Shown here one piece after another: positions 47,240-63,755 of a stretch of DNA of 64,000 nt. Under the pieces are notes generated by a model, which was not told where the DNA came from, did no database searches, and saw only the letters and a program-made list of their open reading frames with translations. A program made the translations under genes and the position numbers. The stretch is from Desulfoferula mesophila (GTDB taxonomy: Bacteria > Desulfobacterota > Desulfarculia > Desulfarculales > Desulfarculaceae), in NCBI RefSeq assembly GCF_037076455.1, contig NZ_AP028679.1, forward strand, positions 1,441,501-1,505,500, read 5' to 3'. How positions within the stretch are numbered: the first letter of the stretch is position 1; every line of letters begins with the position of its first letter.

Positions 47240-47267
47240 TTGACAAAAATCGGTCAAAGGCCATACT
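47240..47267 (+). promoter_or_regulatory. Promoter of the trpE-aro operon
   Basis: A consensus TTGACA -35 (47240-47245) and CATACT -10 (47262-47267), spacer 16, about 30 bases before the leader ATG. The -35 forms part of an inverted repeat TTGAC (47240-47244) / GTCAA (47253-47257), a possible operator. Confidence 0.8.
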
Positions 47268-47295
47268 GAACAGCATCACGGGAGTTGTATACGAA

Positions 47296-47436
47296 ATGCA
47301 AAGGATCCAGACCAACCAGGAAGGCACGAGCGCCCGCCCCATGGCGGCAGCCGCCGGCGCCCCTGTGTTCGGGGTCTGGTTTTATTGGTGGCGTTCACCG
47401 ATGACGGTGTGCTCCGCCGGGAGGAAACCAGCTTAG
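47296..47436 (+). CDS. Attenuator leader peptide with Trp-Phe-Tyr-Trp-Trp run
   Basis: A 46-codon ORF (ATG 47296, TAG 47434-47436) that begins MQRIQTNQEG and carries the run Val-Trp-Phe-Tyr-Trp-Trp at codons 27-32 (TGG 47377-47379, TGG 47386-47388, TGG 47389-47391). GGGAG lies 11 bases upstream. The content of rare aromatic codons, its place between a strong promoter and a terminator, and the gene it precedes (trpE) identify it as a ribosome-sensing leader. Its mix of Trp, Phe and Tyr codons fits an operon that feeds all three pathways. Confidence 0.88.
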   Translation: MQRIQTNQEGTSARPMAAAAGAPVFGVWFYWWRSPMTVCSAGRKPA

Positions 47437-47498
47437 GTCCTTAAACTCCCACGCTTAACAGCGAGCCCACCGTCAGATTGACGGTGGGCTTTTCTTTT
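47402..47498 (+). promoter_or_regulatory. Attenuator of the trpE-aro operon (antiterminator/terminator switch)
   Basis: Strand 2, TGACGGTGTGCTC (47402-47414, inside the leader ORF), can pair with strand 3, GAGCCCACCGTCA (47463-47475), in 12 of 13 positions. Strand 3 alternatively joins the terminator stem (47464-47475 with 47479-47490). A short 1:2 hairpin, CACCG (47396-47400) / CGGTG (47405-47409), is also possible. Stalling at the aromatic codons would hide strand 1 and favour readthrough. Confidence 0.82.
47464..47498 (+). terminator. Attenuator terminator before trpE
   Basis: A perfect 12-bp stem AGCCCACCGTCA (47464-47475) / TGACGGTGGGCT (47479-47490), GAT loop, followed by TTTTCTTTT (47490-47498). 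It ends 17 bases before the trpE ATG. Confidence 0.93.
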
Positions 47499-55700: not shown

Positions 55701-55810
55701 GCTTCTTGGAAAGGCGCGCGTTTTTTGCCCTTGACAGGCCGAACCATGAGGCGTTTACTTGACACAACCCAACTCGGTCCCCAAGGACCGGCAAGGAACT
55801 TGTTAGAATC
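55701..55810 (+). promoter_or_regulatory. Promoter region of the aroF2-pheA-tyrA block
   Basis: TTGACA -35 (55731-55736) and TTTACT -10 (55754-55759), spacer 17, about 50 bases before the leader ATG. A second TTGACA starts at 55759. A GGTCC/GGACC hairpin (55776-55789) lies just before the leader ribosome site. Confidence 0.7.
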
Positions 55811-55921
55811 ATGACGGGCAACGGCAAAATAAATCTGGACGGTCAGGGGCGATTTAGCTCCGGCGTCTTTTTTTATTTTTATTATTTTACCGCCGTCTGC
55901 CCAAGGGCTGGGGAGGGTTAG
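55811..55921 (+). CDS. Attenuator leader peptide with Phe/Tyr run
   Basis: A 36-codon ORF (ATG 55811, TAG 55919-55921) that starts MTGNGKINLDGQGRF and carries Phe-Phe-Tyr-Phe-Tyr-Tyr-Phe at codons 20-26 (55868-55888), with no Trp codon. AAGGA lies about 13 bases upstream. It precedes genes for DAHP synthase, PheA and TyrA, so it is best read as a Phe/Tyr-sensing leader, analogous to pheL and to pheA leaders in enteric bacteria. Confidence 0.9.
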   Translation: MTGNGKINLDGQGRFSSGVFFYFYYFTAVCPRAGEG

Positions 55922-55993
55922 AGCCGAACTAGGCTAAACCAAGCAAGCAACCAAGGCCATGGGCAGACTGAGAAAGTCGCCCATGGCCTTTTT
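55895..55993 (+). promoter_or_regulatory. Attenuator of the aroF2-pheA-tyrA block
   Basis: Strand 2 GTCTGCCCA (55895-55903, within the leader ORF, just after the Phe/Tyr run) pairs perfectly with strand 3 TGGGCAGAC (55960-55968), 9 bp. Strand 3 is part of the terminator 5' arm. A GCCCAAGGGC hairpin (about 55899-55908) may be the 1:2 pause structure. Confidence 0.82.
55953..55993 (+). terminator. Attenuator terminator before aroF2
   Basis: A perfect 12-bp outer stem AAGGCCATGGGC (55953-55964) / GCCCATGGCCTT (55979-55990) with a further inner GACT/AGTC, followed by TTTTT (55989-55993). Confidence 0.93.
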
Positions 55994-58090: not shown

Positions 58091-58938
58091 ACTCGGAGGA
58101 TGACTTTGGCGGCTTTGGCCGCGCCGCCTCGGCCGAAGCCGCCGCCGGGCTCACCGTAGGCATCATCGGGGCCCAGGGCCGCATGGGCTCCTGGCTGTGC
58201 CGCCTGTTGGAGCCCTTGGTGGGCCGCCTGCTTATCGCCGACATAGCGGGCGAGCCGCTCACCCCGGAGTGGGTGGCCGCCTGCCGGGTGATAATCCTGG
58301 CGGTGCCGGTGCACGCGGTGGAGGGGGTGATGCAGTTCATCGGCCCCCACACCGACCCCGAGGGGGTGGTGGTGGACATCTCCTCGCTCAAGCAGACCCC
58401 ACTGACCGCCATGCTGGCCCACGCCCGGGGCGAGGTGGTGGGCGCCCACCCCTTGTTCGGCCCCGGCGCGCCTTCCCTGCAAGACCAGACCGTTTTTCTG
58501 AGCCCCGGCCGGGGGCGGCTATGGCTGACCCGGCTGCGTCGCTTTTTGCAAGGGCAGGGGGCCCGGCCGGTGATCATGGAGCCGGAACGCCACGACCGCC
58601 TCATGGCCCAGGTGCAGACCCTTCGTCATCTCTTGCTCTACGCCTTTGGCTGGAGCCTGATGCAGCTGGGCTACCAACCGGAGACCGACGAGGAGGTTTC
58701 CGGCCCCTGGTTCCGGGAACTCTTGAACATGTTGACCCATCAGAGCGATCAACCCGCCGAACTCTACGCCGACTTGGCCCTGCACAACCCGGACGGCCTG
58801 AAAGCGGCGCGCACCCTGCTGCAAGGCATGAACTCCATGGTCTCTGCCCTGGAGGACAGGGACCGGGGGGCCCTGGTGGCCACCATGGAGCAGGTGGGCG
58901 CCTATATAAAAAACAGCCAAGCCCAACTATCTGCTTGA
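58087..58938 (+). CDS. tyrA: Prephenate dehydrogenase
   Basis: A 283-residue enzyme with N-terminal nucleotide-binding region IIGAQGRMGSWLCRLLEP (about residues 23-40) and segments GAHPLFGPGAP and RHDRLMAQVQTLRH. It converts prephenate to 4-hydroxyphenylpyruvate for tyrosine. No ACT domain is attached and there is no chorismate mutase domain; chorismate mutase is supplied by PheA. Starts at ATG 58087 (ATGA overlap). Confidence 0.95.
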   Translation: MNSEDDFGGFGRAASAEAAAGLTVGIIGAQGRMGSWLCRLLEPLVGRLLIADIAGEPLTPEWVAACRVIILAVPVHAVEGVMQFIGPHTDPEGVVVDISSLKQTPLTAMLAHARGEVVGAHPLFGPGAPSLQDQTVFLSPGRGRLWLTRLRRFLQGQGARPVIMEPERHDRLMAQVQTLRHLLLYAFGWSLMQLGYQPETDEEVSGPWFRELLNMLTHQSDQPAELYADLALHNPDGLKAARTLLQGMNSMVSALEDRDRGALVATMEQVGAYIKNSQAQLSA

Positions 58939-58976
58939 CCGACGCCGCGTTTGGGAGTAGCTTCTGTATACAGAAT
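58935..58976 (+). promoter_or_regulatory. Candidate promoter and 14-base palindrome before the trpD block
   Basis: TTGACC (58935-58940) is followed 17 bases later by TAGCTT (58958-58963), a weak -10. Immediately downstream is a perfect palindrome TTCTGTATACAGAA (58962-58975), a possible operator for a repressor. Its centre GTATAC also occurs 5' of the first leader (TTGTATACGAA, 47285-47295). Confidence 0.5.
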
Positions 58977-58994
58977 ACGGAAGGAGACCGGATA

Positions 58995-59066
58995 ATGTTT
59001 GGCAACGCGTGGCGCTATTGGTGGCAAAGCTGGAACAGGAGTGGTCCACCCGCGCCCGTGCGTTAG
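58995..59066 (+). CDS. trpL: Trp leader peptide 1 of the tandem attenuator
   Basis: A 23-codon ORF (ATG 58995, TAG 59064-59066) reading MFGNAWRYWWQSWNRSGPP and a short tail. Four Trp codons (6, 9, 10, 13) plus one Tyr. AAGGAG lies 8 bases upstream, a strong ribosome site. It precedes trpD-trpC-trpF-trpB-trpA and is the first of two attenuators in series. Confidence 0.93.
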   Translation: MFGNAWRYWWQSWNRSGPPAPVR

Positions 59067-59137
59067 GCATACCCGGAAACACAGACAATCACCGGGGCCG
59101 TGGACCAAAGCAAGGTTCACGGCCCCGGTTCTTTTTT
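59020..59137 (+). promoter_or_regulatory. Trp attenuator 1 (tandem pair, first unit)
   Basis: GGTGG (59020-59024, over the tandem Trp codons) can pair with CCACC (59046-59050) as the 1:2 hairpin; GGTCCAC (59043-59049) pairs perfectly with GTGGACC (59100-59106) as antiterminator; the latter is the 5' arm top of the terminator. Confidence 0.85.
59091..59137 (+). terminator. Terminator of Trp attenuator 1
   Basis: 16-bp stem ACCGGGGCCGTGGACC (59091-59106) / GGTTCACGGCCCCGGT (59114-59129) with one G-U pair and a 7-base loop, followed by TTCTTTTTT. Confidence 0.95.
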
Positions 59138-59151
59138 GGTCGAAGGTAAAC

Positions 59152-59232
59152 ATGCGATCCCAGCGGCAAGACAAGCAGGAATTTTATTGGTGGCGGTGGA
59201 GCGGCACGGGCCGGGAGTCCGTTTTGCCCTAG
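59152..59232 (+). CDS. Trp leader peptide 2 of the tandem attenuator
   Basis: A second, 26-codon leader ORF (ATG 59152, TAG 59230-59232), starting MRSQRQDKQE and carrying Phe-Tyr-Trp-Trp-Arg-Trp at codons 11-16 (59182-59199). AAGG lies 5 bases upstream. It begins only 15 bases after the first terminator's T-run, with no promoter between, so it should be transcribed only on RNA that reads through the first terminator. Confidence 0.9.
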   Translation: MRSQRQDKQEFYWWRWSGTGRESVLP

Positions 59233-59297
59233 CACGCCCCCAAGGCGCCGGGCCGAACAACCGCGGACTCCCGAGAGGGGTTCGCGGTTTGGTTTTT
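59212..59297 (+). promoter_or_regulatory. Trp attenuator 2 (tandem pair, second unit)
   Basis: Strand 2 CGGGAGTCCG (59212-59221, in the leader ORF) pairs perfectly over 10 bp with strand 3 CGGACTCCCG (59264-59273). Strand 3 overlaps the 5' arm and loop of the second terminator, so the two foldings exclude each other. Confidence 0.85.
59259..59297 (+). terminator. Terminator of Trp attenuator 2
   Basis: A continuous 13-bp stem: AACCGCGGACTCC (59259-59271) with GGGGTTCGCGGTT (59277-59289), including two G-U pairs, a 5-base loop, then TGG and TTTTT (59293-59297). It is slightly weaker than terminator 1 because of the three-base gap before the T-run. Confidence 0.82.
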
Positions 59298-59321: not shown

Positions 59322-60368
59322 ATGATTCAGCAAGCCATTGCCAAGGCGGTAAGCGGCAGCGATCTGAGCGAGCAGGAGATGGTCCGGGCCATGGATCAGA
59401 TCATGGAGGGCCAGGCCACCCCGGCCCAGATCGGGGCCCTGCTCATCGCCCTGCGCATGAAGGGCGAGAGCCTGGAGGAGATCAGCGGGGCGGCCCAGGT
59501 GATGCGGGCCAAGGCCACCCCGGTGGCCTGCAACTGCGCGGCGGGCGGCGGGGCGCTGGTGGACATCGTGGGCACCGGCGGCGACGGGGCCGGCACCTTC
59601 AACGTTTCCACCACCAGCGCTTTCGTGGCCGCCGCCGCCGGGCTGCGGGTGGCCAAACACGGCAACCGGGCGGTGAGCAGCTCCTGCGGGGCGGCCGATC
59701 TGTTGGAGAGCCTGGGGGTGCCCCTGGACCTGGACGCCGAGCAGATCGCCCTGTGCGTGGACCAGGTGGGGGTGGGCTTTCTCTTCGCCCCGGCCCTGCA
59801 CGGGGCCATGCGCCACGCCATCGGCCCCCGCAAGGAGATCGGCCAGCGCACCATCTTCAACCTGCTGGGCCCCCTGACCAACCCGGCCGGGGCCTCGGTG
59901 CTCTTGGTGGGGGTGTACGACCCCAAGCTGGTGGAGCCCCTGGCCCACGTGCTGGGGCGCCTGGGAGCCAAGAGCGCCTTTGTGGTGCACGGCGAGGGCG
60001 GCATGGACGAGATCACCGTCACCGGGGTCACCAAAATGGCCCGCCTCCGGGACGGCCGGGTGAGCACCCTGGAGACATCCCCCGAGGAGCTGGGCCTCAC
60101 CCGTGCCACCTTGGCGGACATCCGGGGCGGCACGGTGGAGCAATGCCGGACCCACACCCTGGAGGTGCTCTCCGGCCAAAAAGGCCCCAAGCGCGACATG
60201 GTGCTCATGAACGCGGCGGCGGCCCTGGTGGCCGCGGACAAGGCCCCGGACCTGGCCCAGGGGGTGGCCCTGGCCGCCAAGCTCATCGACTCCGGCGCGG
60301 CCCTGGGCAAGCTGGAGGACCTTATCTCCTTCAGCAAGAGCCTGCGTCTCCAAGTGGCGGAGGCCTAG
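59322..60368 (+). CDS. trpD: Anthranilate phosphoribosyltransferase
   Basis: A 348-residue enzyme of usual length that joins anthranilate to PRPP. PRPP site GTGGDGAGTFNVST (about residues 84-97), KHGNRAVSSSCGAADLLE, and GPRKEIGQRTIFNLLGPLTNP. CAGGAGAAGG lies before ATG 59322; longer upstream reading in this frame runs through the attenuator and is not real. First structural gene behind the tandem attenuators. Confidence 0.96.
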   Translation: MIQQAIAKAVSGSDLSEQEMVRAMDQIMEGQATPAQIGALLIALRMKGESLEEISGAAQVMRAKATPVACNCAAGGGALVDIVGTGGDGAGTFNVSTTSAFVAAAAGLRVAKHGNRAVSSSCGAADLLESLGVPLDLDAEQIALCVDQVGVGFLFAPALHGAMRHAIGPRKEIGQRTIFNLLGPLTNPAGASVLLVGVYDPKLVEPLAHVLGRLGAKSAFVVHGEGGMDEITVTGVTKMARLRDGRVSTLETSPEELGLTRATLADIRGGTVEQCRTHTLEVLSGQKGPKRDMVLMNAAAALVAADKAPDLAQGVALAAKLIDSGAALGKLEDLISFSKSLRLQVAEA

Positions 60369-62958: not shown

Positions 62959-63755
62959 ATCCCGACATCCGCGAAAAATTCGCCAACGCGGCCGAGCAGG
63001 GCCGGGCCGCCTTCGTGCCCTACGTCACCGGCGGCTATCCCAACGCCGACACCTGCCTGGAGTTGATCAGCGCCCTGGACGAGCTGGGCTCCGAGGTGAT
63101 CGAGGTGGGCCTGCCTTTCTCCGATCCCCTGGCCGACGGCCCCACCATCCAGCTCTCCAGCCAGCGGGCCCTGGAGGCGGGCGCCACTCCGGTAAACGTT
63201 TTGCAAACCATGGAGCGGGCCGCGGCCAAGACCAGCGCCGCCCTGGTGGCCATGACCTACGTGAACCCCGTGCTGTCCATGGGTTACGAGGAGTTCGCCA
63301 AGCGGGCGGTGGGTTCCGGGGTCAGCGGGGTGATCATCCCCGACCTGCCCCCGGAGGAGGCGGGAGAGTGGCTGGAGGCCTGCGCGGTCCACGGCCTGGA
63401 CCCGGTGTTCATGGCCGCGCCGGGCACCCCCATGGAGCGCCTGGATAAAATCCTGGCGAAAGCCGGGGGCTTTTTGTACTACGTGTCCATGGATGGGGTG
63501 ACCGGCACCGAGCTGGAACTGCCCCCCGAGCGGCTGGCGGCCATGGCCAAGGTGCGGGCCCGTTCCTCCCTGCCGGTGGCGGTGGGCTTTGGGGTGGCCA
63601 CCCCGGCCCAGGCCGCGGCCCTGGCCCCGGTGGCCGACGGGGTGGTGGTGGGCAGCGCCCTGGTGCGCCAGGTGCACGAGGCGGCCACGCCCACGGCGGC
63701 CGTCAAGGCGGTGCGCGCCCTGGCCGGTGAGCTTCGCGCCGCCCTGGCGCGCTGA
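62955..63755 (+). CDS. trpA: Tryptophan synthase alpha chain
   Basis: A 266-residue TIM-barrel subunit that releases indole from indole-3-glycerol phosphate. Catalytic Glu in [17 protein letters not shown] (about residue 49) and Asp in the same stretch, with phosphate site [25 protein letters not shown] (shortened: VGFGVATP...VVVGSALV). Last gene of the block. No clear intrinsic terminator follows. Confidence 0.97.

Follow-up and report, generated by a model that had tools for sequence, protein, structure and literature searches.

Two tryptophan attenuators predicted in series upstream of trpD in Desulfarculaceae

The gap between tyrA and trpD in Desulfoferula mesophila, a sulfate-reducer-type member of the Desulfarculaceae, holds two leader open reading frames (ORFs), with one intrinsic terminator after each. 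Does a polymerase heading for trpD face one decision about tryptophan, or two in succession? We analyzed a stretch of 64,000 nucleotides of contig NZ_AP028679.1 (the window), the plus strand of which carries a contiguous aromatic cluster. With names read from ORF translations, the order is trpE, trpG, DAHP synthase, aroA, aroE, aroKB, aroC, aroQ, second DAHP synthase, pheA, tyrA, trpD, trpC, trpF, trpB, trpA. The genes checked with NCBIfam were trpE, the second DAHP synthase gene, pheA, trpD, trpC and trpF. Downstream of trpD, the cluster continues through trpC and trpF (NCBIfam) and trpB and trpA (ORF translations) to about position 63755. trpDCFBA encodes the last steps of tryptophan synthesis. 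A plasmid DNA similarity search gave matches limited to the trpD coding sequence.

It is highly probable, judging from the sequence and its relatives, that the leader RNA of trpDCFBA carries a series of two complete ribosome-mediated attenuators of transcription and that each of them senses the charging of tRNA-Trp.

Anatomy of the tyrA-trpD gap

We found the parts of two attenuators between tyrA and trpD, as follows.

58935-58963, plus strand: probable trpD leader promoter, TTGACC (58935-58940), 17 nt, TAGCTT (58958-58963), from conservation in relatives
58962-58975, no strand: perfect 14-bp palindrome TTCTGTATACAGAA, candidate repressor operator at -10/+1, from sequence
58981-58986, plus strand: Shine-Dalgarno sequence AAGGAG of leader 1, from sequence; GGAG-type core kept in six genus-level sequences
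58995-59066, plus strand: leader ORF 1, MFGNAWRYWWQSWNRSGPPAPVR and stop, 4 Trp codons
59042-59049, plus strand: unit 1 antiterminator strand 2, TGGTCCAC, within leader 1; 8-bp pairing with 59100-59107
59091-59137, plus strand: terminator 1, 16-bp stem plus U-tract, from sequence and energy
59100-59107, plus strand: unit 1 antiterminator strand 3, GTGGACCA, overlapping the terminator 1 5' arm (59091-59106)
59152-59232, plus strand: leader ORF 2, MRSQRQDKQEFYWWRWSGTGRESVLP and stop, 3 Trp codons
59212-59221, plus strand: unit 2 antiterminator strand 2, CGGGAGTCCG, within leader 2; 10-bp perfect pairing with 59264-59273
59259-59297, plus strand: terminator 2, 13-bp stem plus U-rich tail, from sequence and energy
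59264-59273, plus strand: unit 2 antiterminator strand 3, CGGACTCCCG, overlapping the terminator 2 5' arm
59322-60368, plus strand: trpD, the first structural gene under control; identified by NCBIfam TIGR01245 at 400 bits (cut-off 199)

The original prediction had placed both leader ORFs and both terminators correctly to within a base or two. It had also described mutually exclusive antiterminators of 7 and 10 bp. Both are indeed exclusive, because strand 3 overlaps the terminator's 5' arm in each unit. The second has 10 bp (11 if a G-U pair is counted), but the first has 8. The stem of terminator 1 (59091-59129) has 16 pairs and a predicted energy of -34.6 kcal/mol (z -7.3), and that of terminator 2 (59259-59289) has 13 pairs and -22.0 kcal/mol (z -3.9). 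Both leaders have Shine-Dalgarno-like sequences upstream and 3-4 Trp codons each. Counts by codon position, 8/8/8 (leader 1) and 9/10/13 (leader 2), show no strong third-position bias, which the overlapping RNA constraint would hide. Leader 2 adjoins unit 1 closely, as had been described, with 14 bases rather than 15 from the T-run to its ATG. The window sequence has no promoter-like match between the two units, in agreement with the same description.

We folded each unit with a stalled ribosome masked. When the RNA ended just past strand 3, the antiterminator was predicted in both units, and it was lost in both when the ribosome was masked at the stop codon. The second Trp codon of the WW pair lies approximately 20 nt before strand 2 in both units. 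On the complete RNA the terminator was still favored despite the stall mask, so antitermination must be kinetic. A kinetic decision is usual in known attenuators. We set aside a fold in which the whole 321-nt leader pairs over long range (-148 kcal/mol), because it requires RNA not yet made when terminator 1 decides.

The -35 element of the trpD leader promoter overlaps the tyrA stop codon. The -10 element in the window genome (TAGCTT) is weak, and this step therefore rests on the relatives. A sigma70-like TTGAC and a -10-like hexamer are conserved directly upstream of leader 1, e.g., TTGACG-16-TAAAAT (L011), TTGACC-17-TAAAAA (L012) and TTGACC-17-TAAGAT (L009). From these we infer the start site of the trpD leader transcript. 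Neither this conserved promoter nor the cluster's other aromatic leaders figured in the original prediction. Another promoter-like sequence, TATACA-18-GATAAT at 58967, was rejected because it overlaps the leader 1 start codon.

The palindrome TTCTGTATACAGAA has GTATAC at its center, overlaps the presumed promoter, and is the sole such site in the genome, exact or with one mismatch. At the corresponding position, many relatives carry GTATACNGTATAC or a TTGTATACAA-like site. Of 20 family genomes, 15 contain the GTATACNGTATAC pattern, all but one of them as a single copy, and a reversed control gave zero matches. Most GTATACNGTATAC sites examined are just upstream of a Trp leader, which belongs either to trpD or to a TrpB-like gene outside the cluster (in the latter case the leader contains LLWWRWQPP). 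TrpR of the E. coli type (PF01371) was absent from all 20 family genomes and is ruled out as the repressor. It is reasonable to suppose that some other Trp-pathway repressor may act on the palindrome-bearing promoters. GTATAC-centered palindromes also occur at 47287-47292, near the trpE leader start, and at L115 1501-1513, at the TrpB-like gene. Two more exact TTGTATACAA sites (L058 and L059; window genome C1:29046 and C1:2243677) are without recognizable trp genes downstream.

Conservation among Desulfarculaceae

We found that the tandem arrangement recurs in relatives. The closest named trpD relatives include Dethiosulfatarculus sandiegensis, Desulfocarbo indianensis and Desulfarculaceae metagenome genomes. 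Of the 15 Desulfarculaceae loci whose sequence upstream of trpD was readable, 9 had both units (G000, G007, G005, G004, G002, G010, G011, G018, G008; several genera) and 6 had one (G001, G006, G009, G013, G015, G016). This conservation suggests that the pair is real, a two-checkpoint form of the textbook trp attenuator, and not a product of chance. The proposal that two Trp attenuators are met serially is thus backed by both anatomy and conservation across genera.

The individual parts are conserved as well. The WRYWW and RSGPPA motifs of leader 1 are invariant in six genus-level sequences, and leader 2 has counterparts with clustered Trp in eight relatives. The U-tract and Trp cluster of unit 2 are intact in the tandem genomes. 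A terminator follows every leader in the relatives (the automatically picked stem of L013 unit 2 is doubtful). The distance from the first clustered Trp codon to the antiterminator start is 21-32 nt in 24 of 24 units.

Antiterminator pairing is better conserved in unit 2 than in unit 1. The unit 2 strands keep 9 of 9 pairs, as GGGAGTCCG/CGGACTCCC, GGTCTGCCC/GGGCAGACC, GGTCTGTCC/GGACAGACC or GGTCTGTCT/GGGCAGACC (the last with two G-U pairs); in L012 and L013 they pair in a shifted register. The strands differ and yet the pairs are kept, which points to compensatory change. In unit 1, closer relatives have TGGTCCAC/GTGGACCA, L017 has GTCTGTCC/GGACAGAC, and others have a bulged GGTCGTCC/GGACCTGACC. 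Weak or bulged forms occur in L009, L010 and the L008/L013-L015 group.

Dinucleotide shuffling of position-constrained helices, with one p-value per lineage, gave combined p-values for antiterminator strength of 5e-7 (unit 2) and 4e-5 (unit 1). The position constraint was applied because automatic picking selected the wrong helix for some copies of unit 1 and for unit 2 of L013. Taken individually, unit 1 p-values were often above 0.05. Together with a whole layout that recurs in nine genomes, the window's included, the combined values indicate more than chance. The genome pattern TGGTGG-T-run-TGGTGG was not diagnostic (21 matches, mostly in coding-like sequence).

The 3' arm of terminator 1 is 20-32 nt from the leader 2 start codon in 9 of 9 tandem genomes, and this spacer consists of the U-run and a ribosome-binding region. 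With so little room between the units and a promoter ahead of leader 1, both are most likely met by a single transcript.

Single-unit genomes usually retain a leader of the unit 1 type, adjacent to the promoter (L006, L007, L014, L015). The TrpD tree calls for about four changes between tandem and single states. An ancestral pair from which unit 2 was lost repeatedly seems likelier than gain of unit 2, because the GGNCAGAC core of unit 2 is found in several genera. In L017 (Dethiosulfatarculus-like), the two terminators upstream of trpD, AAGGCCCTGGACAGAC and AAGGCCGCGGGCAGACC, are alike, and both resemble the Phe/Tyr terminator AAGGCCATGGGCAGAC. This likeness suggests duplication of one module.

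Action of two units in series, and alternatives

In the proposed mechanism, polymerase would start at the promoter overlapping the end of tyrA, with read-through from tyrA also possible, and transcribe leader 1. With ample Trp, the ribosome would pass the Trp codons and cover strand 2, and terminator 1 would form. When Trp is short, the ribosome would stall at the Trp cluster, ~20-30 nt before strand 2, the antiterminator would form, and polymerase would pass. It would then meet an independent second copy of the same test. Since both units must be passed, the read-through probabilities would multiply, giving less leak and a steeper response than one unit. From the layout we infer leader translation and stalling, the termination efficiencies, the independence of the units and the multiplicative output. 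An AND-like, multiplicative response would follow if both terminators are regulated. For illustration, a 10-fold rise in single-unit read-through, from 5 to 50 percent, would become 100-fold with two units in series, at a lower maximum output. Serial attenuators for one amino acid, with single-unit relatives as natural controls, would make response-sharpening by repeated peptide attenuators directly testable; sharpening by repetition has already been proposed for tandem riboswitches and T-boxes.

The two units might instead have different roles. Unit 1 could mainly be a regulated boundary terminator that blocks tyrA read-through from the Phe/Tyr section into the Trp section, leaving unit 2 alone to set trpDCFBA expression. 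Such read-through is plausible where the promoter -35 overlaps the tyrA stop codon, and terminator 1 is far stronger than terminator 2 (-34.6 versus -22.0 kcal/mol). However, the promoter in relatives is upstream of leader 1, so initiating transcripts also cross terminator 1, and where one unit is missing the leader left is usually of the unit 1 type (the four loci named above). We consider a boundary role unlikely. The converse idea, in which unit 2 is a redundant or decaying copy that adds no effect of its own, would fit its absence from 6 of 15 relatives and its loss or gain several times. We regard it as quite improbable, because unit 2 has kept its pairing better than unit 1 has, with compensatory changes between genera, and its U-tract and Trp cluster are intact where it occurs.

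The original prediction also had the leaders sensing different codon sets, with Trp and Tyr read by leader 1 and Phe, Tyr and Trp by leader 2. Combinatorial aromatic control of this kind would account for the codons present in the window sequence, and Phe and Tyr codons do serve in other leaders of the cluster. However, among close relatives only the window genome has the leader 2 Phe; the others have LY, CY or VY, so that it is not conserved even within the genus. Tyr is not retained in most other genera, where Trp clusters predominate (WGWWWR, WRWWR, LWWWWP, RPWWWR), and nearly all units keep a cluster of Trp codons. Since Trp is conserved in both leaders and the leader 2 Phe is not, the idea of different codon sets fails, and we judge combinatorial control very unlikely. 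Two serial units that both read Trp codons remain our preferred reading.

Known systems and other leaders of the cluster

Each unit shares its working principle with the classical ribosome-mediated trp attenuator (E. coli trpL, rhizobial peTrpL type): a short leader with clustered Trp codons, an exclusive antiterminator, an intrinsic terminator, and ~20 nt from the stall to strand 2. The E. coli trp attenuator has a stall-to-strand-2 spacing of about 20 nt. In both trpD units, the Trp-clustered short ORF and the terminator precede the first structural gene, and the stall position is predicted to free the exclusive antiterminator. The trpD leader differs from the classical case in having two units serially, in having strand 2 inside the leader ORF rather than past its stop, and in its location inside an aromatic cluster before trpD, not before trpE. 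An Rfam scan of the window gave no match at the gathering score, to a Trp leader or otherwise, and none relevant at E up to 5. The trpD leader thus works on the same principle as the Rfam Trp leader family but does not belong to it. The scan also gave no T-box match (motif, specifier stem) in the window.

The nearest described analogue is the tandem T-boxes on Firmicute trp operons. These share the type of operon, the tRNA-Trp charging signal and repeated units in series, and a pseudo-cooperative output has been proposed for repeated identical sensors (PMC12452182). T-boxes bind tRNA directly, whereas the sensor of the trpD units would be the ribosome translating a Trp-rich leader. The Salmonella mgtCBR leader, which its authors call singular, likewise has two ORFs in one leader RNA that both control elongation. 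These sense ATP and proline, act additively and lack intrinsic terminators (PMC3641672), whereas in the trpD leader both units would read Trp codons and an intrinsic terminator follows each of them. Tandem riboswitches at metE of B. clausii also form two complete sensor-terminator units serially, but they bind two different metabolite ligands through RNA, without a leader peptide (PMC3641672). Our search of the open literature brought up no case in which one amino acid is sensed by tandem ribosome-mediated attenuators that have two intrinsic terminators. This agrees with the earlier statement that tandem peptide attenuators are rare. Relative to the open literature, and with Desulfarculaceae as the genomes compared, what appears new is a series of two classical units that serve one amino acid, with an intrinsic terminator for each unit.

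We found other leaders within the cluster.

47296-47436, plus strand: trpE leader, MQRIQTNQEG...VWFYWWRSPMTVCSAGRKPA; terminator 47463-47496; antiterminator TGACGGTG/CACCGTCA
55811-55921, plus strand: Phe/Tyr leader MTGNGKINLDGQGRFSSGVFFYFYYFTAVCPRAGEG before DAHP synthase-pheA-tyrA; terminator 55953-55993

The trpE leader has a promoter, TTGACA-CATACT, at 47240, and most relatives have Phe and/or Tyr beside its Trp codons (WFYWWR, FYWWWR, FYFWW, SYYWW). The Phe/Tyr leader has a conserved promoter-like TTGACA-17-TTTACT at 55731 and was matched in 9 of 12 relatives' stretches. It keeps Phe and Tyr codons without a Trp cluster (FFYFYYF, FYFYFYYF, YFYFSFYYF). Its antiterminator, GTCTGCCCA/TGGGCAGAC, has 9 bp (55895-55903 with 55960-55968) and takes the form GTCCGCCC/GGGCGGAC in L132. 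The core is the same as the unit 2 core of L009 (Desulfocarbo-like), which suggests duplicated modules with changed codons.

We lean slightly toward a broader reading in which the Desulfarculaceae aromatic cluster is cut into sections, each with a codon-matched attenuator: Phe-Tyr-Trp for trpEG and the common pathway, Phe/Tyr for DAHP synthase-pheA-tyrA, and Trp only, two in series, for trpDCFBA. The modules would have arisen by duplication within the cluster and codon retargeting. If so, the codon-matched leaders along one cluster would be a clear case of attenuator modules duplicating and changing specificity.

Another Trp leader (MTRIHPALINLLWWRWQPPG...) and terminator, a single unit, is outside the cluster at L115 1531-1717 (window genome C1 near 137530). 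The gene behind it is TrpB-like (NF009057, TIGR01415).
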